NCBI GenBank assembly: GCA_015064125.1
Contig: SVSV01000008.1
Span: 1 to 32,157 of the forward strand
DNA: 32,157 nt
DNA from: Oscillospiraceae bacterium
GTDB lineage: Bacteria > Bacillota > Clostridia > Oscillospirales > CAG-272
Direction of reading: 5' to 3'
The notes under the pieces were generated by a model, which saw nothing but the letters and a program-made list of their open reading frames with translations, was not told the origin of the DNA and did not search any database. Numbering within the stretch: position 1 is the first letter of the stretch; the number at the start of each line of letters is the position of its first letter. Shown here in pieces: positions 2,675 through 18,926 of the stretch. A program made the translations under genes and the position numbers.

Positions 2675-5236
2675 TCAGACGGTGACGGTATGGCAGCCGG
2701 GGGTGAGGGTCATGGGGGCCTTGCCAGGTAGCTCGAGCACAGCCGTTGTATCGAAGGGCACGCTCACGGTTACGCGGTAGCCGCTCTTAGTCTGCTTCCA
2801 TGCCGTTTTGATCGTGCCCATGGGGGAGTTGTAGCTCATGGATACGTGGGTGAAACGGTGGTTGAGCTCCGGACGGATGCGGAAGGTGTGGAACCCGGGG
2901 GAGGTCAAAGTAAGACCGCAGATGTGCTCGTACATCCACTGAACGATACTGCCGTAGGTGTAGTGGTTCAGGGAGTTCATGCCCGTGCCTGAGATCTTGC
3001 CGTCGGGCAGGACCGAATTCCAGCGCTCCCAAATGGTGGTCGCGCCCATGTCCACCTCATACAGCCAGCTGGGAAAATCGTTTTGGAAGAGCAGCGTATA
3101 GGCGGCTTCGGTATAGCCCGCCTGTGAGAGGGTCTTGCACAGGAAGGGGGTGCCCACAAATCCTGTTTGCAGGTGCATATTGCTTTGCTCGAGAAGCTTT
3201 GCCAGCGCCTTACCGACGGCGGGGCGATGTTCTTCCTTTGCCAAACCGAAGGCCAAAGCTAAAACATGGGCAGTCTGGGTGCGGATACTGATAGTGCCGT
3301 CCTCGGCAAAGTATGCTTTTTGTATAGCGGCCTTGGTGCGCTCGCTGATAGCCCCGTAACGGGCGGCATCCTCTGTGCGCCCGAGCACGGTGGCAGCCTT
3401 GGCTACCAGCTGGGCAGAGTACTTCAGATACGCTGAGGCCACGTAGGTGGTGTCTGTGCCGCCATAGCGGTCATCCTTTTGATCGGGGTCGCCGTCCAGC
3501 GCCAGCCAGTCACCAAACTTGAAGCCGTGCTCCCATAGACCCTGCTCGTTTAAAACAGTACGGTCGATCCAGTCTACCCAGCCCGTCATGCTCGGGTAGC
3601 ACTCTTCGAGGATGGCGGTGTCGCCGTAATGCTCATATAACGTAAAGGGGATAATGACGGCAGCATCGCCCCAGGCGCAGGAGCCGCCCTGCCAAAAGGC
3701 ATTGTATTTGCTGTAATCCTTGAAGAAGGAAGGCGCCACGTGACCGACACGGCCGCCAAATTCCTTTTGCTCGACCCAAATGTCGCGCAGGTACTTGCGA
3801 TAAAAGGCGTAGGTGTCCATGTTATAGCAGGCCGTTTTGCAGAACATCTGGGCATCGCCCGTCCAGCCCATACGCTCATCTCGCTGGGGGCAATCGGTGG
3901 GCAGGTCGAGGAAGTTGTCCTTTTGGCTCCACTTGGCGTTGAGATACAAGCGGTTGATGCGGGCATCGGAGGTTGTGATAAAGCCTGTTTCGTCAAGGTC
4001 GGAGTAGACCACGCAACCGACAAAATCATTCAAGTCGACGGGCTTCGTATTTCCGGAAATTTTCACGTAGCGGAAGCCGAAGAACGTGAAATAGGGGCTC
4101 ACCGTAGCCTCGGTGCCATCGGAAATATAGGTGTATTCGGCCTTTGCATAGCGCAGGTTTTCGTTGTAGAAGCAGCCGTCCTGCAGGATCTCGCCGTGCT
4201 GGAGCCTGATGGCTGTGCCAGAGGGCTCGTTTACGTGGAAGGAAAGCCATCCGACGATGTTCTGACCGAGGTCCAGCACCGTTTCGCCCGCGGGTGTGTG
4301 AATGATCCCGACGGGCTTTACGGTTTCCTTGACGACGATAGGCAGGGACAGGCGGTCGGCCAATACACCAACGCCCTCTGCTTTGGTAGCGACCATGCGA
4401 TCCCAGCCACTGTCATTAAGCGTGGGCTGGGACCAGTGGGCGATGGCACGGCGGGCATCATAGACCTCACCGCCGTAGATGCTGTCCTCGACAATGGGGG
4501 AGGGGGCGCAGCGCCAGCTTTCGTCGGTCGTGATGATCTGCTCGGTGCCGTCGGCCATCGTCAGTCGCAGCTCGGCTTTCAGCAGATATTTGTCAATAAA
4601 GGGGGTCTGTGCCCGATGCGACGAGGAGGCGCCAAAGGCGGCCTTATACCAGCCGTTGCCCATCATAAGCCCCAGTACGTTGTTGCCGCTTTGCACGTAG
4701 TCGCTGAGGTCATACGTATAGATCTGACCCAAGCGGTCTATCTGGGTACAGCCGGGTGCCAGAAAATCGTTGCCGACCTTCTTGCCGTTGACCTCCAGAT
4801 AATAAAGCCCCAAGCCCATCACGTACAGCCGTGCCTTCTTCACGTTGGTTGCCTCAAAGGCTTTGCGCACGTAAGGGCTTTCGTCCCACGGCGTGGTGAT
4901 CCACTGACCTAAGAGGGGCTCCTCGCGCTTACCTGTTTCAAAACAGTTTACGGCCGAAACGGCGGTGTCGCCGCCGTCGCCCCAAACCTGCACGGTCCAG
5001 TAGTAGGCTGTGCGTGGCATCAGCGAGAGGGGGAGCTTAACGCCGGTTTGGGAAAGGTCCGCTTTTGTGACGTCATAGACGATCTGTGTCATGGCCTCGT
5101 CTAGTGCTACCAAAACACGGGCCTTGGCTTGATGCTGAGAAATATTGCTTTCGCTTACCCAGGATACCGTGGCGCTTTCCATGGCGAAGCCGAGCGGTGC
5201 GGTAAGGTGGTTGGTTTTGCAGTTAAAAATCTTCAT
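2675..5236 (-). CDS. Alpha-L-rhamnosidase, GH78 family
   Basis: ORF 2675..5434 trimmed to MKIFNCKTNHLTAPLGFAMES at 5236 behind an aaagga RBS; 'LDLPTDCPQRDERMGWTGDAQMF' and 'WERWNS..' GH78 signatures. Confidence 0.9.
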   Translation of the reverse strand: MKIFNCKTNHLTAPLGFAMESATVSWVSESNISQHQAKARVLVALDEAMTQIVYDVTKADLSQTGVKLPLSLMPRTAYYWTVQVWGDGGDTAVSAVNCFETGKREEPLLGQWITTPWDESPYVRKAFEATNVKKARLYVMGLGLYYLEVNGKKVGNDFLAPGCTQIDRLGQIYTYDLSDYVQSGNNVLGLMMGNGWYKAAFGASSSHRAQTPFIDKYLLKAELRLTMADGTEQIITTDESWRCAPSPIVEDSIYGGEVYDARRAIAHWSQPTLNDSGWDRMVATKAEGVGVLADRLSLPIVVKETVKPVGIIHTPAGETVLDLGQNIVGWLSFHVNEPSGTAIRLQHGEILQDGCFYNENLRYAKAEYTYISDGTEATVSPYFTFFGFRYVKISGNTKPVDLNDFVGCVVYSDLDETGFITTSDARINRLYLNAKWSQKDNFLDLPTDCPQRDERMGWTGDAQMFCKTACYNMDTYAFYRKYLRDIWVEQKEFGGRVGHVAPSFFKDYSKYNAFWQGGSCAWGDAAVIIPFTLYEHYGDTAILEECYPSMTGWVDWIDRTVLNEQGLWEHGFKFGDWLALDGDPDQKDDRYGGTDTTYVASAYLKYSAQLVAKAATVLGRTEDAARYGAISERTKAAIQKAYFAEDGTISIRTQTAHVLALAFGLAKEEHRPAVGKALAKLLEQSNMHLQTGFVGTPFLCKTLSQAGYTEAAYTLLFQNDFPSWLYEVDMGATTIWERWNSVLPDGKISGTGMNSLNHYTYGSIVQWMYEHICGLTLTSPGFHTFRIRPELNHRFTHVSMSYNSPMGTIKTAWKQTKSGYRVTVSVPFDTTAVLELPGKAPMTLTPGCHTVTV

Positions 5237-5249
5237 ATTGCAGATTCCT

Positions 5250-7211
5250 TTAGGTTTCAGGGATGTTGTTGCTGCCGTTTGAGTGCATATAGAAGTAGCG
5301 TGCAGCGTAGCCTGCGCCCACGTTAAAGTGGTCGTAGCAGGTCTGGAAATAGACCTCGCGCTTTGCATACTCGTCAAAGAAGGTGCCAAAGAGCAATGCC
5401 GCCTCGCGGAGCTTGCCCTCGGCGGCAAGGGCAATGGGCTCGGCTACACCGATGAGAAAATCAAGGTAGAAGTCAAGCAGGCGCATCGACACGGTCTGCA
5501 CGCGCATGGGCATATTTTTGTGCGCCTCAAGGAAGGGCTTAAGGGTGGCGGCAAAGCGCCCGAGCTCGCGCACCTTAGGTGCCATTTCGGGGGCGTACAG
5601 GCGGTGCTGATCCTTATCCTTGCACAGCTTGCCTGCCAGATATGCTTGCGGTACGATCTCGCCAAGGCTTGTGAGGAAGTCAAGCACCCTGTGCCACTCC
5701 TCGCCATAGGCGTGGGAAAAATAATCTTCTACGATATCCTCAAATTTGACGTTTACGTCAAACAGGGTCGCGGCATAGGTGTAAAAGGGCAGACCGTGCG
5801 GCCAGTAGGAGCGCTGTGAGCCGTCCTCAATGATGCCGTGGAAGCCGTGGGCGTAGTAGCCCTTGACATCCTCGTGAATGATGCGGGCATAGTTTATGCT
5901 GCCCGGGTTGTAGTATTGATTATAGCAGAAGTGATATTCATAAAGAAAGGTGTTTACGCCATACTGTGCCATGGAGGACTTGGCATAGGGAATATACTCG
6001 TCGATATCCAGCGGCAGCGTGATATCGTTGTGCTTAAAGGGCACAAAGGGAAATTCCTTGGGCTGTGGGTCTACCGAGCGATAATAGGCACGCGTGATGG
6101 GTGCGAACAGCATGGTAAAGCGCGCGGGATTTTTGATATTGACGGTCTCGGATTTCCAGATGGTTTCGTAGTAGCAGATAAACACGATGCGGGTGTCCAG
6201 CTCACGGCGCGTCAGCTCCTCGTCTATTTCGTTCATCAGCATGATGTACCAATCCGTGACGATCCTTTTGCGGCATGCCTCGCACTCGCAATGGTTGTTG
6301 TAATAGTCTGCCAGCCAGATGTGCAGAAAGTCGACGTTGGTATTCAGCGCGGCGTAATCCGCTACGCTCTTGACCCACAGACGGCGTGTTTCGGGATTGG
6401 ACATACACACGTTGGTGTTCAGCGGCACACCGAGGTAGAGCTGGCGCTCGCCGTTCAGCATCGCCAGGTGCTGAAAGGCCTCGGGGGGAACGGCGTTGGC
6501 ATCGCTTGCCTTCCAGCCAAGTGAGGAGTTGATGCCGTAGGGCTCGGCCGTCCAGCCGTGCCCCATATCGTGGTATTGCAGACCGCGCTTAGAGATCTCA
6601 GCCTCGCACTGGCGTTTCCATTGCAGCACCTGCGCCTCGGTCACGGGCTCGGGCTCGCGGGCGTTGTTGAAGGCATGATCGTAATAGCTATCGTAATATG
6701 CCTTGGGGTTGTCAAACTCCTGCATAAAGATATTCATACCAAGCTTGGGGGTAAAGTCGATGGCCTCTATCATCTGCTGCTGATATTCGCCCCCTTCATT
6801 GCACTGCCCGCGATAGCGGCAGTCAGCCATCTTGTGGTACTTGGCGGCAGTTATTTGCTTGGTGGGAATGAACTCGCCGTCAACACCCGGAAACAGCCAT
6901 CTGCAGCCGTTTAGCGTGAGGTAGCGATAGACCGCAAGCAGCACCGAGCGGGGGTTAGAGCCGGCAATGATGCCGTTGCCCTCCCCGTCCACGTCTACGT
7001 GCAGGATGTCGTCAAGCGTGAGGTCCTCGGCCTCACTCGTATCAAGCCCGAGATCGCTCATGACACCAAGGCGAAAGCCCTGTGTTGCGGTGGGATCGTA
7101 GGCAATGTCGATCTCGCCGCAGCGCGGCATCATCATACGCAGATATTTTTTCAGCTCCTCTGCGGCAAAGTCAACAACGTGACTTGAGGTGATCTTAAAA
7201 ATCTTAAACAT
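5250..7211 (-). CDS. DUF4838 domain-containing protein (putative glycosidase-like)
   Basis: ORF trimmed to MFKIFKITSSHVVDFAAEELKKYL; 'CRWLFPGVDGEFIP', 'HIWLADYYNNHCECEACRK' resemble DUF4838 proteins. Confidence 0.75.
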   Translation of the reverse strand: MFKIFKITSSHVVDFAAEELKKYLRMMMPRCGEIDIAYDPTATQGFRLGVMSDLGLDTSEAEDLTLDDILHVDVDGEGNGIIAGSNPRSVLLAVYRYLTLNGCRWLFPGVDGEFIPTKQITAAKYHKMADCRYRGQCNEGGEYQQQMIEAIDFTPKLGMNIFMQEFDNPKAYYDSYYDHAFNNAREPEPVTEAQVLQWKRQCEAEISKRGLQYHDMGHGWTAEPYGINSSLGWKASDANAVPPEAFQHLAMLNGERQLYLGVPLNTNVCMSNPETRRLWVKSVADYAALNTNVDFLHIWLADYYNNHCECEACRKRIVTDWYIMLMNEIDEELTRRELDTRIVFICYYETIWKSETVNIKNPARFTMLFAPITRAYYRSVDPQPKEFPFVPFKHNDITLPLDIDEYIPYAKSSMAQYGVNTFLYEYHFCYNQYYNPGSINYARIIHEDVKGYYAHGFHGIIEDGSQRSYWPHGLPFYTYAATLFDVNVKFEDIVEDYFSHAYGEEWHRVLDFLTSLGEIVPQAYLAGKLCKDKDQHRLYAPEMAPKVRELGRFAATLKPFLEAHKNMPMRVQTVSMRLLDFYLDFLIGVAEPIALAAEGKLREAALLFGTFFDEYAKREVYFQTCYDHFNVGAGYAARYFYMHSNGSNNIPET

Positions 7212-7274
7212 GGCTTTTTTCCTTTTTGAAAGAATTTTTGAGGGATAATGCGTTACAAGCAACGATGAATACCG

Positions 7275-9398
7275 TTATTCCTCTAAGGAGTCGGCAAATG
7301 GGATAGTCAGGGCAACGTAAGAGGCAAAGCCGTGGTCAAGACTGCCGTAGCCGTCCCTATATTCCCACAGGGTGCCCGTGGTGCGGCTCATATGCAGGCA
7401 AAACGTTTCAAGATTTTTTGCTAAAAGCTCCTTGTCCTTCATATGCATCAGCACGTTCATTCTCAGATAAAGCCCGATAAAGGCGTTCTTGGGGCAGAAG
7501 GTGTTTTCACCGGGATCAAAGCTTTTGAAATCGTTGATCACGTAGCTCTTCAGCTTTGCATATTGAGGCGCGTCAAGGTCAATGCCGCCGTAGAGTATGG
7601 CGTAATACTGGCAAGCCTCGGAAATATGCTTTTGATTTTCAAGCGTGTTGTCGGGCGTTCTTACTGCGTGGTCGACAAACACCTCGCCGTTAAACGAAAG
7701 TGCCGCGGTCTTTTTGCGCAGCTCCTCGGCCTTTTTGAAAAGGCGGGGCATAGAAAACGTCTTTGCCACGGCACATAGCAGCGCCGCGTAAAGGAAATTC
7801 GTAGGGTAATTGACGTCCTGCGTCCAGGAGTTCGCATCCGACCATTCAACAAAATTCCAGGAGGGGAGCCTTTCAAGCAGCCCGTCCTCATTTTCATAAC
7901 GCTCAAGGAAGCTGAGGACACCCATCACGGAGGGCCTGAAGATCTCTTTGTCCTTGTCGGGATTGCGCTCGTCAAGATATTCGCAGACCTCAAGCACGTA
8001 CCACATATTCCATTGAGGAATAAACTTATTGTTCAGGTGTGCGTCGCTCGGGTAGCACATAGGCAGCACGCCCTCGGGAAAGGTGCCGTCTCCTTGGTAC
8101 AGAACGTAGTTTTCAAGAAAAGCATCCTCAATTTCTGTTGTTCCAAAGAGAAAATGCTCGGTGCGAGCGGTAAAAAACGAATCGCAAAGCCAGCCGGCGC
8201 GCTCACGCGAGGGGCAGTCGGTAAAAATATCCACGGCATTGTGCGCAAAGGTGCGCAGAGCCGCCCGATATATTTCATTGTGCGCGGGCTTTTTGAAGCT
8301 GCGGGGGGTCGCCGACGTCATATCTCTTTCAAACGTACGGTATCCCACGGAGTTCAGGCACAGGGTGCCTTCTTTGACAAAAACGGCCACGTGACGGAAG
8401 GTATAGGGCTCAAAAGACTCCTCGGTCGCCTTGCCTGCTGAAAGCTTATATTCTATGACGCTCTGAATGTTGATTTTACGGAAGGAAAACGGATCGCCCT
8501 CGCACAGCTCGCTGAAGGCAACGATCACGTCGCAATCGCTTTTCACGTCGGCGTCAAGGCGTATAAATCCGGCCACGATCATCTTAAAATCAATCATCAG
8601 CCATTCTCCGGCCGAGAGCGTGACAGGCAACGTCCCCTCTCCCGAAAGCTTGGTTTTATGAAGGCTACCTACGTAGCGATAGGGCTTATCCTTGATTTCA
8701 TCGGGTGAAAAAAGGCCGTAAGCGGGCTCCTTTTCAGGAGGGAAGCTGTAGGCGTTTTGCTTGGCGCCCGTGCCGAATTCCTTGCTGTCCGCTCGTCCGT
8801 CCTCTGCCACGGTAAAGGCGCCGCGGGACAGATATTTTTGCGTGTCGCACACCTCATATGACGGATGGGGCACGCGACGGGGGATAAACTGAATATCCTG
8901 TGCGACGGTAACGGCTTGTACGGGCTGCTTGTCAGCGCCATGTGCGTCATAGATCTCGCCAAAATGTCTTTGCACCGAATAGCGCTCCACCTTTCGCACA
9001 CGGCGCGTGTTTTCAAAGCATTGAAAATCCTTGCCCGTGTATTTGGTTACCTTGCCTTTTTCTACGATCTCTGCGCAAAAGAAGGAATCCTGAAAAACGG
9101 TAGACAAGCTCTTGCAATGATAGCCGGCCACCTCTATTACGATCTCGTTTTCTCGGTTATCGGCGGCCTTGATTTTTGATAGATCGTACGCATCGACCCT
9201 TGCATAGCCCTTGGCGGTACGCGCGGGGCCAAAGCCAACGAAATTTCCGTTTACGGTAAGACGGTAAAAATACGCCGCGGCAATCTGTATCGTGACACCG
9301 TCAAGCGATTTTACGCCCTCGCGAAAGATCAGGTGGCGGTTCAGCTTTTCGGAATCGTTTTTATAGCTTCCCCAAACGGGGATGGCCTTGGTAAACAT
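7275..9398 (-). CDS. GH78-like (alpha-L-rhamnosidase-related) six-hairpin glycosidase
   Basis: Start MFTKAIPVWG at 9398 with ggagg RBS; 'DIFTDCPSRERAGWLCDSFFTA' is a divergent form of the GH78 motif. Confidence 0.75.
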   Translation of the reverse strand: MFTKAIPVWGSYKNDSEKLNRHLIFREGVKSLDGVTIQIAAAYFYRLTVNGNFVGFGPARTAKGYARVDAYDLSKIKAADNRENEIVIEVAGYHCKSLSTVFQDSFFCAEIVEKGKVTKYTGKDFQCFENTRRVRKVERYSVQRHFGEIYDAHGADKQPVQAVTVAQDIQFIPRRVPHPSYEVCDTQKYLSRGAFTVAEDGRADSKEFGTGAKQNAYSFPPEKEPAYGLFSPDEIKDKPYRYVGSLHKTKLSGEGTLPVTLSAGEWLMIDFKMIVAGFIRLDADVKSDCDVIVAFSELCEGDPFSFRKINIQSVIEYKLSAGKATEESFEPYTFRHVAVFVKEGTLCLNSVGYRTFERDMTSATPRSFKKPAHNEIYRAALRTFAHNAVDIFTDCPSRERAGWLCDSFFTARTEHFLFGTTEIEDAFLENYVLYQGDGTFPEGVLPMCYPSDAHLNNKFIPQWNMWYVLEVCEYLDERNPDKDKEIFRPSVMGVLSFLERYENEDGLLERLPSWNFVEWSDANSWTQDVNYPTNFLYAALLCAVAKTFSMPRLFKKAEELRKKTAALSFNGEVFVDHAVRTPDNTLENQKHISEACQYYAILYGGIDLDAPQYAKLKSYVINDFKSFDPGENTFCPKNAFIGLYLRMNVLMHMKDKELLAKNLETFCLHMSRTTGTLWEYRDGYGSLDHGFASYVALTIPFADSLEE

Positions 9399-9466
9399 AC
9401 TGTTCCTCCATTCATTTGAAAGCAGTGATACATATCCTTGCCTTGGCAAGAGGTACATCTACCCTC

Positions 9467-12428: not shown

Positions 12429-13925
<1,497 letters not shown>

Positions 13926-14001: not shown

Positions 14002-15099
14002 TTATTTTACCAAAAGGGTTTTGACGTTTTTCTGAGATTTGGCATAGGCGATCGCCTTGTTGATCTCGGTGACCTTGAAGCACGTGCCCAGCTCCTTGAT
14101 TTTCTCGTGCAGCTCGGTGTGGGTTGACAAAAAGTCAAGATAAATGCCGACGTCACACATAGAGTACTGCGAGGAGCCGATGATATGCAGAGCCTTGAAG
14201 GTGATGAGCTGGGGCTGGATCGCGATCTCGCCCGAGGCGCTGTACTGACCGGGAACCAGATAAACACCTCTGTTTCGAAGAATATCCATGCCCTGCACGA
14301 CTGCGGCAGGTGCACCCGAGCATTCGATCGTGAGATCGACACCAAGCCCACCGTTTTCTGCTTGCAGTGCCTTCGTGACAGCCTCAACGCCCTCACGGGT
14401 GAGATTAAAGACCTTATCGGCACCGATCGCGAGGGCTGTGTTCTCTCTTGTGGTGTCGTTGCCGGCGGTGATGGCATAGACGGTCTTCACGCCCAGTGCC
14501 TTCAGATACATCACGGCAAAGGTGCCAACGGGGCCAAGGCCCTGTACCACGGCCACGTTGATGCTTGAGAAATCAACGTCCGCTTTTTTTGCCAGCTCAC
14601 AGGCGTGAATGGCCGTGGGGCCGGGGCAGGCAAAGGTGGCGGCAACTCTGGGGTCGATGCTCGCGGGAATTTTCACGAGATTTGACAGGGGCGTGTAGTT
14701 CACCTCGGCATAGCCACCGTAAAGATAGGGGGCCACGTCAATGCTGCCGCCGTTGGTGACCTGCATATTGACGCAGTTGGCATCGTCGCCGTTTTTGCAA
14801 AGAATACATTCCCCGCAAGGAATGGCAATATCGGCAATGACGTGATCGCCAATGGCAAGGCCGTATTTTGCGCCCTCTTTTTCATCAAGATCGGTAATTC
14901 TGCCAACGAATTCGTGGCCGATCACCGTCGGGGGGTTAATGGCCAGCTTGCCGTTGTGGAAATGCAGGTCGGTGCCGCAAATACCGCTGGCGACCAGCTC
15001 CATTTGTCCATATCCCTTGGGGGTAGGTGTGATCTCAAATTCACGCACCTCAAAATCCTTGTGCGGCCCCATAAAAACAGCTGCTTTTGCTTTCATCAT
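14002..15099 (-). CDS. Zinc-dependent medium-chain alcohol/polyol dehydrogenase
   Basis: SGICGTDLHFHNG catalytic-Zn region, GHEFVGRI, structural-Zn CGECILCKNGDDANC, Rossmann VVQGLGPVGTFAV. Confidence 0.9.
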   Translation of the reverse strand: MMKAKAAVFMGPHKDFEVREFEITPTPKGYGQMELVASGICGTDLHFHNGKLAINPPTVIGHEFVGRITDLDEKEGAKYGLAIGDHVIADIAIPCGECILCKNGDDANCVNMQVTNGGSIDVAPYLYGGYAEVNYTPLSNLVKIPASIDPRVAATFACPGPTAIHACELAKKADVDFSSINVAVVQGLGPVGTFAVMYLKALGVKTVYAITAGNDTTRENTALAIGADKVFNLTREGVEAVTKALQAENGGLGVDLTIECSGAPAAVVQGMDILRNRGVYLVPGQYSASGEIAIQPQLITFKALHIIGSSQYSMCDVGIYLDFLSTHTELHEKIKELGTCFKVTEINKAIAYAKSQKNVKTLLVK

Positions 15100-15105
15100 T
15101 ATTTC

Positions 15106-15870
15106 CTACCTTTCTATTTTTACTGAAAAATATGTTTTATAAATTGCTTCGATTTCACCAAGCTCCTCTTTTGTGAGAGGATGCTGTGCCCGATAGGGAT
15201 AGTCAAGCCCCATGGCCTCGTATTTCGCGCTCCCCAGTCGGTGAAAGGGCAACAGGTCAACGTGCTTTGTCGAAAGCTCCCGCAGGCACTCGCAAATGGC
15301 ATGTGTCGCCTGTGGCGAGGTATTAAAGCCCGGGATCAGGGGGATGCGAATGAAAACCGTCATACGGTCCTCGCGCAGTCGCCGAAGATTGTCAACAACG
15401 CGCGACAGATCACCGCCGATCTCGCTGTATTTTTGTGCGTCTGACGTTTTGAAATCAAACAAATAGCCCGTTACAAAGGGATTTAGCTCCTGAAAAAGGG
15501 CGTACGGCACGCACCCTGCGGTGTCTACCAGAAGCGATACGCCGTTTTCCCGTAACGTCCGTGCCAGCGGCACAAGCCTTGCTGCTTGCAGCATCGCCTC
15601 GCCACCCGAAAAGGTCACGCCGCCGTTGCTTTCGTCAAAAAAGGCTTTGTCCTCCAAAAGCTCAGGCAGGAGCTCTTCTGCCGACAAAAGCTGTCCGAGC
15701 ACCTCGGTCTTGTTCGTGGCGCGGTAGTGAAGGGAAACGGGCTCCCCACTTAGGTTTTCGGGATTGTGGCACCAGGGGCAGCGCAGGTTGCAGCCCTTGA
15801 AGAATACGGTGGTGCGGATCCCCTCGCCGTCCCCCACGGAAAAATGCTGGATCTTTGAGATATTGAGCAT
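15106..15870 (-). CDS. Glycyl-radical enzyme activating enzyme (radical SAM, PFL-AE-like minimal form)
   Basis: GDGEGIRTTVFFKGCNLRCPWCHNPEN (CxxxCxxC); FSGGEAMLQ; directly downstream of the GRE with RBS AGGAG overlapping the GRE stop. Confidence 0.92.
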   Translation of the reverse strand: MLNISKIQHFSVGDGEGIRTTVFFKGCNLRCPWCHNPENLSGEPVSLHYRATNKTEVLGQLLSAEELLPELLEDKAFFDESNGGVTFSGGEAMLQAARLVPLARTLRENGVSLLVDTAGCVPYALFQELNPFVTGYLFDFKTSDAQKYSEIGGDLSRVVDNLRRLREDRMTVFIRIPLIPGFNTSPQATHAICECLRELSTKHVDLLPFHRLGSAKYEAMGLDYPYRAQHPLTKEELGEIEAIYKTYFSVKIER

Positions 15871-15873
15871 AGC

Positions 15874-17976
15874 TTACTCCTGCTGGGTGCGGTTTAAAAT
15901 ATCGAGCTGCACGTCCTTTTCAAGGGTCACGTAGAATGCAGAAAAGCCCGAGACGCGCACAACCAGATTTTGGTATTTTTCGGGATGGTCTATCGCGTCC
16001 ATCAGTGTTTCGCGCGAGGTGGCATTGATCTGGATCTCCTGCCCGCCCTGCTTAAAATAGGTCTTGATCAGCGCCATCAGCTTTTTGCGCTTTTCTGCGT
16101 CAAACATAGAAGGGGAAAACTTTTGGTTTACCACGCTGCCGCAGGCGACCTTGGTGTAATCGGGCCTCGAGAGGCTGATCAGGGTGGAGGTGGCGCCTCG
16201 GGTATCCCGTCCGTAGGTGGGAGAAGCGGCATCGGAGAGGGGCTCACCGCGCAATCTGCCGTCGGGGGTGGCGTTGATGATCCTGCCTGCGTAAATATTG
16301 CTGATGTTGGCGGCTGCCGCAATATAGATGCCGCCACCGTCACGGGTCTTATGCTTGGCAAACAAAGCGCTGAGGCACTCAATAAACCACACGGCATATT
16401 TGTCAGCAAAAGCATCGTTGTTGCCGTATTTCGGTGCAGCCAACAGCTTTTGGCGCAGCTCCCCGTATCCCTCAAAGTTGGCATTCATGGCATCTCGGAG
16501 GTCAGCAAGCGTTGCGGCGTGATCGACAAATACCACCTTTTCAATGGCGGCAAGCGAATCGGCAACCGTGCCGATCCCCATCACCGCCGCGCCGTGAACG
16601 GAGGGGTAAATGCTGCCGCCGCAGTTGAGGTCAAGCCCTCTTTCAATACAGCCCTCGCAAAAGCAGGATAAAAACGGCTCGGCGAAAAAGGCCTGATTGA
16701 TGGCATCGTTCGATGCGTTAAATCTGAACACATATTCGTCAACGCCAAAGGCAAGCTGCTTTTCAAAGGCGGCCATAAAGTCGCCTATTGAGGTGATATC
16801 CTCAAGTCTGCAAGGCTCAAGCCCCAGCGACTGATTGGTGGCGCTCATGCCGTTGTTGAAAATATAATCAAAAAATCGCGGGGTGTCAAAGCGCCCGTCG
16901 GACCACGGCGGCTGTTTGCCTGTGATGAAGTTTTCAATACAGCCTACCATAGAATAATTGTAGACGTCCTCATCGGCATAGCCGTATTTTTTCAGCGCGG
17001 CAATATTCACGTCATCGTTCATAATGGCGGGATATCCAAGCCCCGTGCCGATGGTTTCAAGACATTCGTCCAAAAAATCGTCTGGGGTGCTTTGCGTATA
17101 GCGCAGTGAGAGATTGGGGCCGGGGACGTTGCAATTTCTGACTGCACGCAGAATGCAGCGGCTGAGGGGATTTACCTCGCACTTGCCGCTTTTGCTTTGC
17201 CCGCCGATGCAGATATTGATGGTGTCGTTTTGAAGCTTGATGAAAACGTTTTCCAAAAGCTCAATGGCAAACGCGTCGCTTAAGGCCTGCTTTTCAATAT
17301 CCGACTTGTAAAAGGGATACAGATATTGGTCAAGGCGACCGAGTGCCATGGCACGCCGTCCCTCCATCGAAAAGGCCAGATGGCAAAACCATACCAGCTG
17401 AAGCGCCTCGGGGAAGCTTGCGGGCGGGCCGCTCAGAATGGCGCGGCAATTGTCGGTGATAAACTGCAAGCGCTGCGCGTCAAGATCGGGGGAGCCCTTC
17501 AGTGCTTCGGCCCGAAGCATATAATTTTCGATCATTTTTGAAAAGCCGCATAGGCTTTTTCGCATGGCCTTAAGTGTCGCGGTCCTTTCAGGGTCGCCTT
17601 GATGTACCTCCAGCGATGCTTCGATCTCGCCGATCATACCGGGCAGACCTGTGCGAAGAATATGGCTGTAATCGGGGGCATAGTGGTCTTTGTTGGTGAT
17701 AAAGCTTCTCTGAGAGAATTTATCCACCAGGCCCCTCGCGTAATTCAGCACAAGCGCGCTTTCATCACAAAACAAAGATGCTTGGTTTCCTGCTATCCAC
17801 TCGCTTTTAAGAATAACGGGCACGGGGACCGCAAACAGGGAGTAAATGCCGTTTGCACGCAGGGTGGCATAATCGGCACTAAGATCCTCCTTGTAGCCCA
17901 AATAGCGGAAATAATACGGCGCATAGGTGCCGCTGTTTTGCTTTAATTCCTCATTTAAGCTTTCAAACAGCTTCAT
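15874..17976 (-). CDS. Glycyl radical enzyme (PFL/diol-dehydratase superfamily), substrate unknown
   Basis: Cys-loop NYSMVGCIENFITGKQPPWSDG; C-terminal radical loop VVRVSGFSAFYVTL; start at 17976 gives 7-nt spacing to AGGAGG. Confidence 0.92.
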   Translation of the reverse strand: MKLFESLNEELKQNSGTYAPYYFRYLGYKEDLSADYATLRANGIYSLFAVPVPVILKSEWIAGNQASLFCDESALVLNYARGLVDKFSQRSFITNKDHYAPDYSHILRTGLPGMIGEIEASLEVHQGDPERTATLKAMRKSLCGFSKMIENYMLRAEALKGSPDLDAQRLQFITDNCRAILSGPPASFPEALQLVWFCHLAFSMEGRRAMALGRLDQYLYPFYKSDIEKQALSDAFAIELLENVFIKLQNDTINICIGGQSKSGKCEVNPLSRCILRAVRNCNVPGPNLSLRYTQSTPDDFLDECLETIGTGLGYPAIMNDDVNIAALKKYGYADEDVYNYSMVGCIENFITGKQPPWSDGRFDTPRFFDYIFNNGMSATNQSLGLEPCRLEDITSIGDFMAAFEKQLAFGVDEYVFRFNASNDAINQAFFAEPFLSCFCEGCIERGLDLNCGGSIYPSVHGAAVMGIGTVADSLAAIEKVVFVDHAATLADLRDAMNANFEGYGELRQKLLAAPKYGNNDAFADKYAVWFIECLSALFAKHKTRDGGGIYIAAAANISNIYAGRIINATPDGRLRGEPLSDAASPTYGRDTRGATSTLISLSRPDYTKVACGSVVNQKFSPSMFDAEKRKKLMALIKTYFKQGGQEIQINATSRETLMDAIDHPEKYQNLVVRVSGFSAFYVTLEKDVQLDILNRTQQE

Positions 17977-18012
17977 AGGCATACCTCCTCTTTGATGAAT
18001 GAGCCTGATTTC

Positions 18013-18041
18013 ATTTTACTGCTGCAGGCGGCAGGCGTCAA
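18013..18041 (-). promoter_or_regulatory. Putative promoter of the GRE operon
   Basis: Minus strand TTGACG-N17-TAAAAT; spacer contains a tandem 7-mer GCAGGCG x2 (plus-strand sense). Confidence 0.65.
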
Positions 18042-18060
18042 TAAACAAAAATAAAAAATC

Positions 18061-18089
18061 TTGACAAAATTAATATAAAGTGCTATCAT
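18061..18089 (+). promoter_or_regulatory. Putative promoter of the AraC-family regulator
   Basis: TTGACA-N17-TATCAT. Confidence 0.75.
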
Positions 18090-18125
18090 AAACCTAAGGA
18101 CATACCAAAAACAGAGGTGCTTATC

Positions 18126-18926
18126 ATGCAGACCTATGAGATCGAAGCGTTGCCGCGTGTGGAGTTCGCACACGTCTATCACGCAAACACCTATTTCAAC
18201 ACCTTCCCCAAAAGAAAAAACGCCCTGGAGGTCACCTTCATCTCCGAGGGGTCGATCACGGTTGAATATAACGGTAGGGAATACGTGGCAAGCAAGGGTG
18301 ACATTGTTTGTTTGCCGTATGACCAAGCCAGGATCCGTATCAGGGCGCACGCCTATCACGAGCACCATACGGTCCTTGCGCAATTGAAATGGTGCTTGCA
18401 GGACGATGGAAACGGCTTATATCTGCCGATCGTGACGCCTGTGCAATTTGATACACGCGCTGCGGCCAATATCATCGATCAGCTGATATCCAACCAGCTG
18501 ATCTTCAAGACCTCGCCTACAAAGGGGGCAACGATGTTTCTTGGCTTGCTTTATGAGATCGATCAATGCAACAGAAAGCAAAAAAAGCTGACTTTGCCGA
18601 GCGAGGCGCTATATACGCTGCGCGCCAAGGAATACGTGCAACGCAGGCTCTATGCACCTATCACACAAAAAGAGGTGGCGGAGCATCTTTCGATCTCCCC
18701 CGAATATCTGTGCGCGGTGTTTAAAAAGACAGAGGGGATCACCTTTATGAAATATGTCAATACTGAGAAATTGGCGGCCATCAGAGCGCTGATGGAAAAG
18801 GAGGGGATCCATTTATACGAGGCGGCGGCGCTCTTTGGCTATCATGACGCAAACTACGTCAGTCGGTTGTTCAAAAAATATTACGGATATAATATTACAG
18901 ATCGGAAAAATGACCTTTCCGAATAA
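18126..18926 (+). CDS. AraC-family transcriptional regulator (cupin-like N-terminus, HTH C-terminus)
   Basis: 'PITQKEVAEHLSISPEYLCAVFKKTEGITFMKYVNTEKLAAIRALM...ALFGYHDANYVSRLFKKYYGYN'. Confidence 0.93.
   Translation: MQTYEIEALPRVEFAHVYHANTYFNTFPKRKNALEVTFISEGSITVEYNGREYVASKGDIVCLPYDQARIRIRAHAYHEHHTVLAQLKWCLQDDGNGLYLPIVTPVQFDTRAAANIIDQLISNQLIFKTSPTKGATMFLGLLYEIDQCNRKQKKLTLPSEALYTLRAKEYVQRRLYAPITQKEVAEHLSISPEYLCAVFKKTEGITFMKYVNTEKLAAIRALMEKEGIHLYEAAALFGYHDANYVSRLFKKYYGYNITDRKNDLSE

Follow-up and report, generated by a model that had tools for sequence, protein, structure and literature searches.

The window, i.e. the whole 32,157-nucleotide stretch of Oscillospiraceae DNA that was analysed, encodes a glycyl radical enzyme (GRE) that falls with its homologues in a clade of its own, a widespread and sharply delimited family, and is set in a real module of AraC-type regulator, GRE, radical-SAM activase and zinc-dependent alcohol dehydrogenase (ADH). 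It is an oxygen-sensitive radical enzyme with its own activator and partner dehydrogenase, carried by uncultured gut bacteria. We give somewhat better than an even chance to the GRE being a C-O-cleaving radical eliminase of a carbohydrate-derived vicinal diol, the carbonyl product of which would then be reduced by the ADH. The features of the module are as follows.

14002..15099, minus strand: Zn-dependent medium-chain ADH, 365 aa, the partner oxidoreductase of the GRE
15106..15870, minus strand: radical-SAM GRE activase, 254 aa, with KGCNLRCPWCHN (CxxxCxxC) and without a Cys-rich ferredoxin-like insert
15874..17976, minus strand: GRE gene, 700 aa from the ATG at 17976 (residue numbering follows the 702-aa form)
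15928..15957, minus strand: codons of the glycyl-radical loop, RVSGFSAFYV, residues 676-685 (coordinates from the 17982 start)
16891..16944, minus strand: codons of the thiyl-radical loop, GCIENFITGKQPPWSDGR, residues 347-364 (coordinates from the 17982 start)
17977..18116, no strand: intergenic region between the divergent AraC and GRE genes, with an AGGAGG ribosome-binding site 7 nt before the ATG at 17976
18117..18926, plus strand: AraC-type regulator, 269 aa, divergent, upstream of the GRE

The GRE and its activase

In its longest form the GRE open reading frame spans 15874-17982 on the minus strand (702 aa from the ATG at 17982). The AGGAGG lies 7 nt from the second ATG (17976) and only 1 nt from the first, and the N-termini of close homologues correspond to the Met at 17976, so the likeliest start is 17976, giving 700 aa. 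The protein has the defining features of the PFL-like GRE superfamily: the Cys loop and the C-terminal RVxG[FWY] glycyl-radical loop are both intact (Pfam scores of 402 bits for PFL-like and 94 bits for Gly_radical), and a radical-SAM activase accompanies it. The translation contains GCIENFITGKQPPWSDG, and therefore Cys-x-Glu (GCIEN) and not adjacent Cys-Cys, as an earlier note on this DNA had read it. The unusual shortness to which that note pointed, at about 700 aa, is also genuine; residues 95-100 align to residues 160-164 of glycerol dehydratase (GDH), which leaves the protein some 65 residues short of GDH on the N-terminal side.

The activase gene follows the GRE stop codon after 3 bp and the ADH gene follows the activase stop after 6 bp, on the same strand; both genes are as the earlier note describes them. 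There are no Cys residues in the 53-aa segment of the activase between CxxxCxxC and SGGE, where an auxiliary-cluster domain would carry eight. The protein passes TIGR02494, the model of the GRE-activase subfamily (227.9 bits, cut-off 174), and fails PFLA (149.5 bits, cut-off 231.75), and four distant family members (L078, L083, L085 and L086) have an activase insert with 7-9 Cys. In the activase tree, in which several nodes are weak, the short forms branch from among the long forms and apart from PFL-AE, suggesting that the ferredoxin-like domain was apparently lost within the GRE family. The activase at one locus, L081, has an insert of half size with 4 Cys, a possible intermediate in this loss.

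The activase has PFL-AE as its nearest match in the PDB and carries no ferredoxin-like domain, and could on that account be taken to indicate that the GRE is a PFL-like 2-ketoacid formate-lyase. This is hardly credible, given that GCIEN has no adjacent Cys-Cys, that the NCBIfam PFL model scores 114 bits against a cut-off of 994, that C69, elsewhere in the genome, matches PFL-like far better (723 bits), and that activases with and without the domain group together in the tree, which argues for loss. Kinship of the activase itself with PFL-AE was rejected on the same tree, some nodes of which are weak, the short form apparently being a loss within the family.

A family of short GREs in uncultured Clostridia

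The signature GCIENF-x2-G-x-QPPW-x-DGR is nearly invariant across 66 homologues that are 40-87% identical and come from metagenome-assembled genomes of uncultured Clostridia, several of them from ruminants. Cys348, Glu350, Gly355, Trp360 and Asp362 are each present in 66 of 66 sequences of the family alignment, and Asn351 and Phe680 in 65. Almost 100 columns are fully invariant in an alignment of 41 sequences at 41-87% identity, and column conservation this strong suggests a single function shared across the family and not a decayed gene. The active-site loop described earlier as atypical is thus real and not a product of chance, but it is the signature of the whole family of 66 homologues and not peculiar to one protein. 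The radical loop RVSGFSAFY is present as noted, and its Phe in place of Tyr is also found in 12 of 40 other uncharacterised short GREs.

Within the same bacterial family, 52 of the 295 genomes sampled (about 18%) carry a family member, and within the class 17 of 391 do, the genome of the window being included in both searches. A profile search of 399 phylum-wide genomes found no additional member, the other matches being classical GREs of about 800 aa. A scan of genome contigs returned 11 relatives at 63-87% identity, followed by a drop to 32%; L014 and L015, sequence neighbours in that scan, were ruled out as members as they are only 32% identical. No paper on the family was found in the open literature, subscription papers being outside that search. 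GRE families without characterisation are common, and for many of the GREs that abound in the gut no function is known (PMC11574389), so the family is a good target and not a surprise.

Several genomes encode more than one GRE. L097 (G100:C115:2611-6898) has two family GREs in tandem, each approximately 61-62% identical to the window copy, and the same genome has a third (53%) on a separate contig. At six further loci (L009:12696-15613, L012:12699-15616, L082 (ORF 12), L064 (ORF 7), L065 (ORF 4) and L093 (ORF 7)) a second, distant GRE, 27-31% identical to the family GRE, lies near it. At L009 and L012 the activase adjoins the second GRE and none is beside the family GRE, so activases might be shared. 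Some class-level relatives (including G347, G337, G301 and G306) have approximately 9-13 GRE genes; in G347 seven of the ORFs lie within roughly 47 kb of one contig (L160-L162, G347:C24:22000-75000), several with their own activase. Most GREs of these relatives are short (650-760 aa) and make up many long uncharacterised branches. Among the short GREs sampled, about 10 of 40 have no Glu at Cys+2 in the alignment.

Relation to characterised GREs and the active site

Phylogenetic analysis with IQ-TREE (51 sequences) gives full support for monophyly of the family (100/100), and both this tree and a FastTree tree of 87 sequences show it as its own clade, apart from GDH, 1,2-propanediol dehydratase (PDH), HypD, CutC, HplG, YbiW, PflD and PFL. 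It lies outside the GDH/PDH clade, which has support of 97.7/100 in IQ-TREE, and the deeper nodes among short GREs have weak support. For IslA, HpsG and the decarboxylases the comparison is by profile and fold scores. The GRE is approximately 32-33% identical to the characterised references in the comparison set and at most 29% identical to the solved GREs listed by fold alignment, in line with the candidate new GRE specificity of the earlier note; no characterised member was found, and none of these references exceeds 60% identity, the example level that the note had set for a refutation. The GRE also falls far below the NCBIfam equivalog cut-offs for HypD (338 bits against 1100), CutC (330/1050), HpsG (329.5/1000), HpfG (308/1000), and the 4-HPA (234/1150) and indoleacetate (220/1100) decarboxylases. 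Its AF2 model (pLDDT 94.4, pTM 0.93) has glycerol dehydratase as closest PDB fold (TM 0.91), and glycerol dehydratase is also the top phmmer match.

The pocket was compared on the basis of sequence alignments, using residue equivalences to GDH. GDH His164, Cys433, Glu435, Asp447 and Gly763 correspond to His100, Cys348, Glu350, Asp362 and Gly679 of the GRE, each conserved in 66 of 66 family members. One alignment shifts Asp362 by a single column, but as W-x-D and the spacing of Cys+14 match exactly, it is taken as equivalent to Asp447. Among the references, Asp at Cys+14 is found in C-O eliminases only (GDH, 1,2-propanediol dehydratases and PflD). C-x-E is conserved among eliminases, its Glu being the base proposed to act on the hydroxyl from which the carbonyl arises (PMC7077986), and His160 and Asp339 are essential in HypD (PMC7077986). 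Cys348-Ile349-Glu350 is thus a normal eliminase motif (PMC7077986), as expected from the earlier assignment of C-x-E to dehydratase/lyase-type GREs, and an eliminase-type active site is the supported prediction.

On the substrate side, the family differs from GDH. Ser282 is replaced by Ala211 (66/66), Pro436 by Asn351 (65/66), Ser642 by Asn559 (66/66), Tyr640 by Ala557 and Tyr339 by Val or Thr, while His281 is mostly Tyr, but Arg in the GRE of the window (Arg210) and in the relative closest to it. These GDH residues are taken to line the glycerol pocket of the published structure. The His281-Ser282 pair and GCVEPQ, common to GDH, PDH and 9rco, are not kept, and the GCVEP(Q) form is indeed absent, as had been observed, with GCIENF (Pro to Asn) in its place. 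Loss of Tyr640 and Tyr339 could make the pocket larger. Since positions that meet the substrate in GDH are changed, the reaction type is not assured by analogy to GDH.

These comparisons bear on the idea that the GRE is a dehydratase of glycerol or 1,2-propanediol that has diverged, with the ADH making 1,3-propanediol or 1-propanol. Glycerol dehydratase is closest both in fold and in phmmer search, the His/Cys/Glu/Asp set is the same, the set of GRE, activase and ADH resembles a dehydratase plus aldehyde reductase, and there are alpha-L-rhamnosidases in the window, 1,2-propanediol being obtainable from rhamnose. We nevertheless consider it unlikely given the identity of about 32%, the position outside the well-supported GDH/PDH clade, and the replacement of residues common to GDH/PDH by the invariant Ala211 and the nearly invariant Asn351, with Asn559 and Ala557 also differing. 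Linkage to rhamnose or fucose genes is also inconsistent, rhamnosidase-type genes being found in near relatives only and otherwise distant. Cleavage of a C-N or C-S bond, with loss of an amine or of sulfite, is improbable: CutC, HplG and IslA likewise have C-x-E, and the sequence scores of CutC and HplG are close to that of GDH, but CutC, HplG and HypD do not have Asp at the Asp362 position and amine or sulfonate genes do not recur in the loci.

Gene context, proposed function and known systems

Across 67 family loci, many of which are ended by contig edges, an activase is found near the GRE in 45, an ADH in 37, an AraC-type regulator in 23 and a SASA-type carbohydrate esterase in 15. Genes joined or adjacent to family GREs encode GH38, GH31, GH28, GH78-like, GH2, GH20 and sugar-binding-type proteins; these carbohydrate genes differ between loci, while SGNH/SASA deacetylases and glycoside hydrolases as such recur. 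This context, taken as context only, supports a carbohydrate-derived substrate and singles out no compound, so the polyol or deoxy-sugar suggested in the earlier note is not picked out by it. Transporter, kinase and aldolase genes show no consistent linkage across the loci. Among the window ORFs scanned with Pfam there was no microcompartment (BMC) shell or aldehyde dehydrogenase domain, in agreement with the earlier note, and no shell protein (PF00936) was found in the genome, which is 76% complete. The arabinofuranosidase ArfA (12435-13925) is beside the GRE in the window only (1 of 67 loci), and a link to arabinose or arabinan was rejected, as ArfA is not conserved with the GRE. At 2678-9458 on the minus strand of the window, three genes stand in a row: that of an alpha-L-rhamnosidase (GH78), one whose 670-aa product matches no Pfam family, and another of GH78-like type. 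This row is also kept beside the GRE module in L003/L088. GH78-like genes are common only to near relatives, with others distant (24-26%), and a rhamnose link was not retained.

Sugar-related neighbours are also compatible with a C-O lyase that opens the ring of a cyclic sugar or anhydro-sugar, the way YbiW and PflD act on 1,5-anhydrohexitol 6-phosphates; PflD too has Asp after the Cys loop, and identity to YbiW (about 33%) is comparable to that to GDH. The chances of this are low, as low as those of a dehydratase of glycerol or 1,2-propanediol, since the loci have no recurring kinase, PTS or aldolase, while pflD is accompanied by PTS genes and ybiW has fsaA nearby, and YbiW and PflD belong to another clade.

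The ADH is encoded in 31 of the 295 same-family genomes, 30 of which also have the GRE (Fisher p=8e-26), and a GRE without a close ADH is found in 22 of the 52 GRE genomes, many of those 22 being incomplete. This asymmetry suggests that the ADH needs the GRE and not the reverse, which makes the product of the GRE the probable substrate of the ADH. The 16 genera with the ADH are all among the 21 that have the GRE, so the link does not come from counting a single clade many times, even if genera are not independent either. The functional tie to the Zn-dehydrogenase proposed earlier is therefore upheld by conserved operon and genome co-occurrence. Directly behind the second Rossmann strand of the ADH (AITAGNDTTR) no acidic residue is evident, and a preference for NADPH is possible. 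At L089 it is not the ADH that is joined to the GRE but an aldo-keto reductase, together with an SGNH esterase.

In the C-O eliminase scheme that we favour, the locus would encode a two-step, B12-independent anaerobic module. The activase would set a radical on Gly679, which would move to Cys348, and the Cys348 thiyl radical would abstract hydrogen from a hydroxyl-bearing carbon of a carbohydrate-derived vicinal diol or hydroxy-ether. The substrate hydroxyl would lose its proton to Glu350, which His100 would tune, and a ketyl radical would form with departure of the adjacent C-O group, leaving a deoxygenated aldehyde or ketone. The ADH would reduce this carbonyl with NAD(P)H, making the GRE-ADH pair an electron sink. 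The analysis establishes the family, its conserved catalytic residues, the fold, the operon and the co-occurrence in genomes; from these we infer the bond type (C-O and not another elimination), the step order and the carbohydrate nature of the substrate. The altered GDH substrate positions, the 22 GRE genomes without a close ADH, the variation in carbohydrate neighbours and the want of a consistently linked transporter, kinase or aldolase speak against the scheme. A narrower version, possible but doubtful, is that the GRE dehydroxylates a C4-C6 sugar or alditol in its free, unphosphorylated form, and that the dedicated ADH reduces the deoxy-aldose or deoxy-ketose to an excreted deoxy-polyol; if true, this would be an undescribed radical sugar route and electron sink in herbivore-gut Clostridia. 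The family is a clean target, having a single signature, an activase of minimal form and a dehydrogenase whose linkage has statistical backing. Product-driven oxidation of NAD(P)H by the ADH would serve as a simple coupled assay, a known substrate would predict electron disposal in these uncultured bacteria, and the activase is an apparent natural case of auxiliary Fe-S domain loss.

Among known systems, that of DhaB1 (PDB 1r8w) shares the fold (TM 0.91), the Cys/Glu/His/Asp/Gly catalytic set and the pairing with an activase and a partner reductase. It differs in sequence (28-32% identity), in its N-terminus, about 65 residues longer, and in Ser282, His281, Tyr339, Pro436, Tyr640 and Ser642, all changed in the GRE, while the window activase has no ferredoxin-like domain. 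DhaT, the partner of DhaB1, is iron-type, whereas the window dehydrogenase is a Zn-MDR. The 1,2-propanediol dehydratases (PDB 5i2g, 9rco) have the same eliminase active site with WxD after the Cys loop, but are approximately 32-33% identical, lie in another clade and show the same pocket differences as GDH, and the GRE system is without a microcompartment. PflD and YbiW of E. coli (anhydrohexitol-6-phosphate C-O lyases, PDB 8yjo, 8id7) are likewise CxE eliminases, acting on sugars, and PflD shares the Asp after the Cys loop; they differ in clade and loop motifs, and the GRE loci do not have their PTS or aldolase context. With regard to HypD, His100 corresponds to the essential His160 and Asp253 lies in the column of the essential Asp339, but the Phe340 and Thr645 columns have Val/Thr and Asn, and the Asp278 column Tyr/Arg. 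PflA (PDB 3c8f) is, like the window activase, minimal and without a ferredoxin-like domain; the window activase differs in fitting TIGR02494 and not PFLA, and in having family relatives that retain the Cys-rich insert. The radical-elimination chemistry would be of an already known class; the family itself appears to be uncharacterised.
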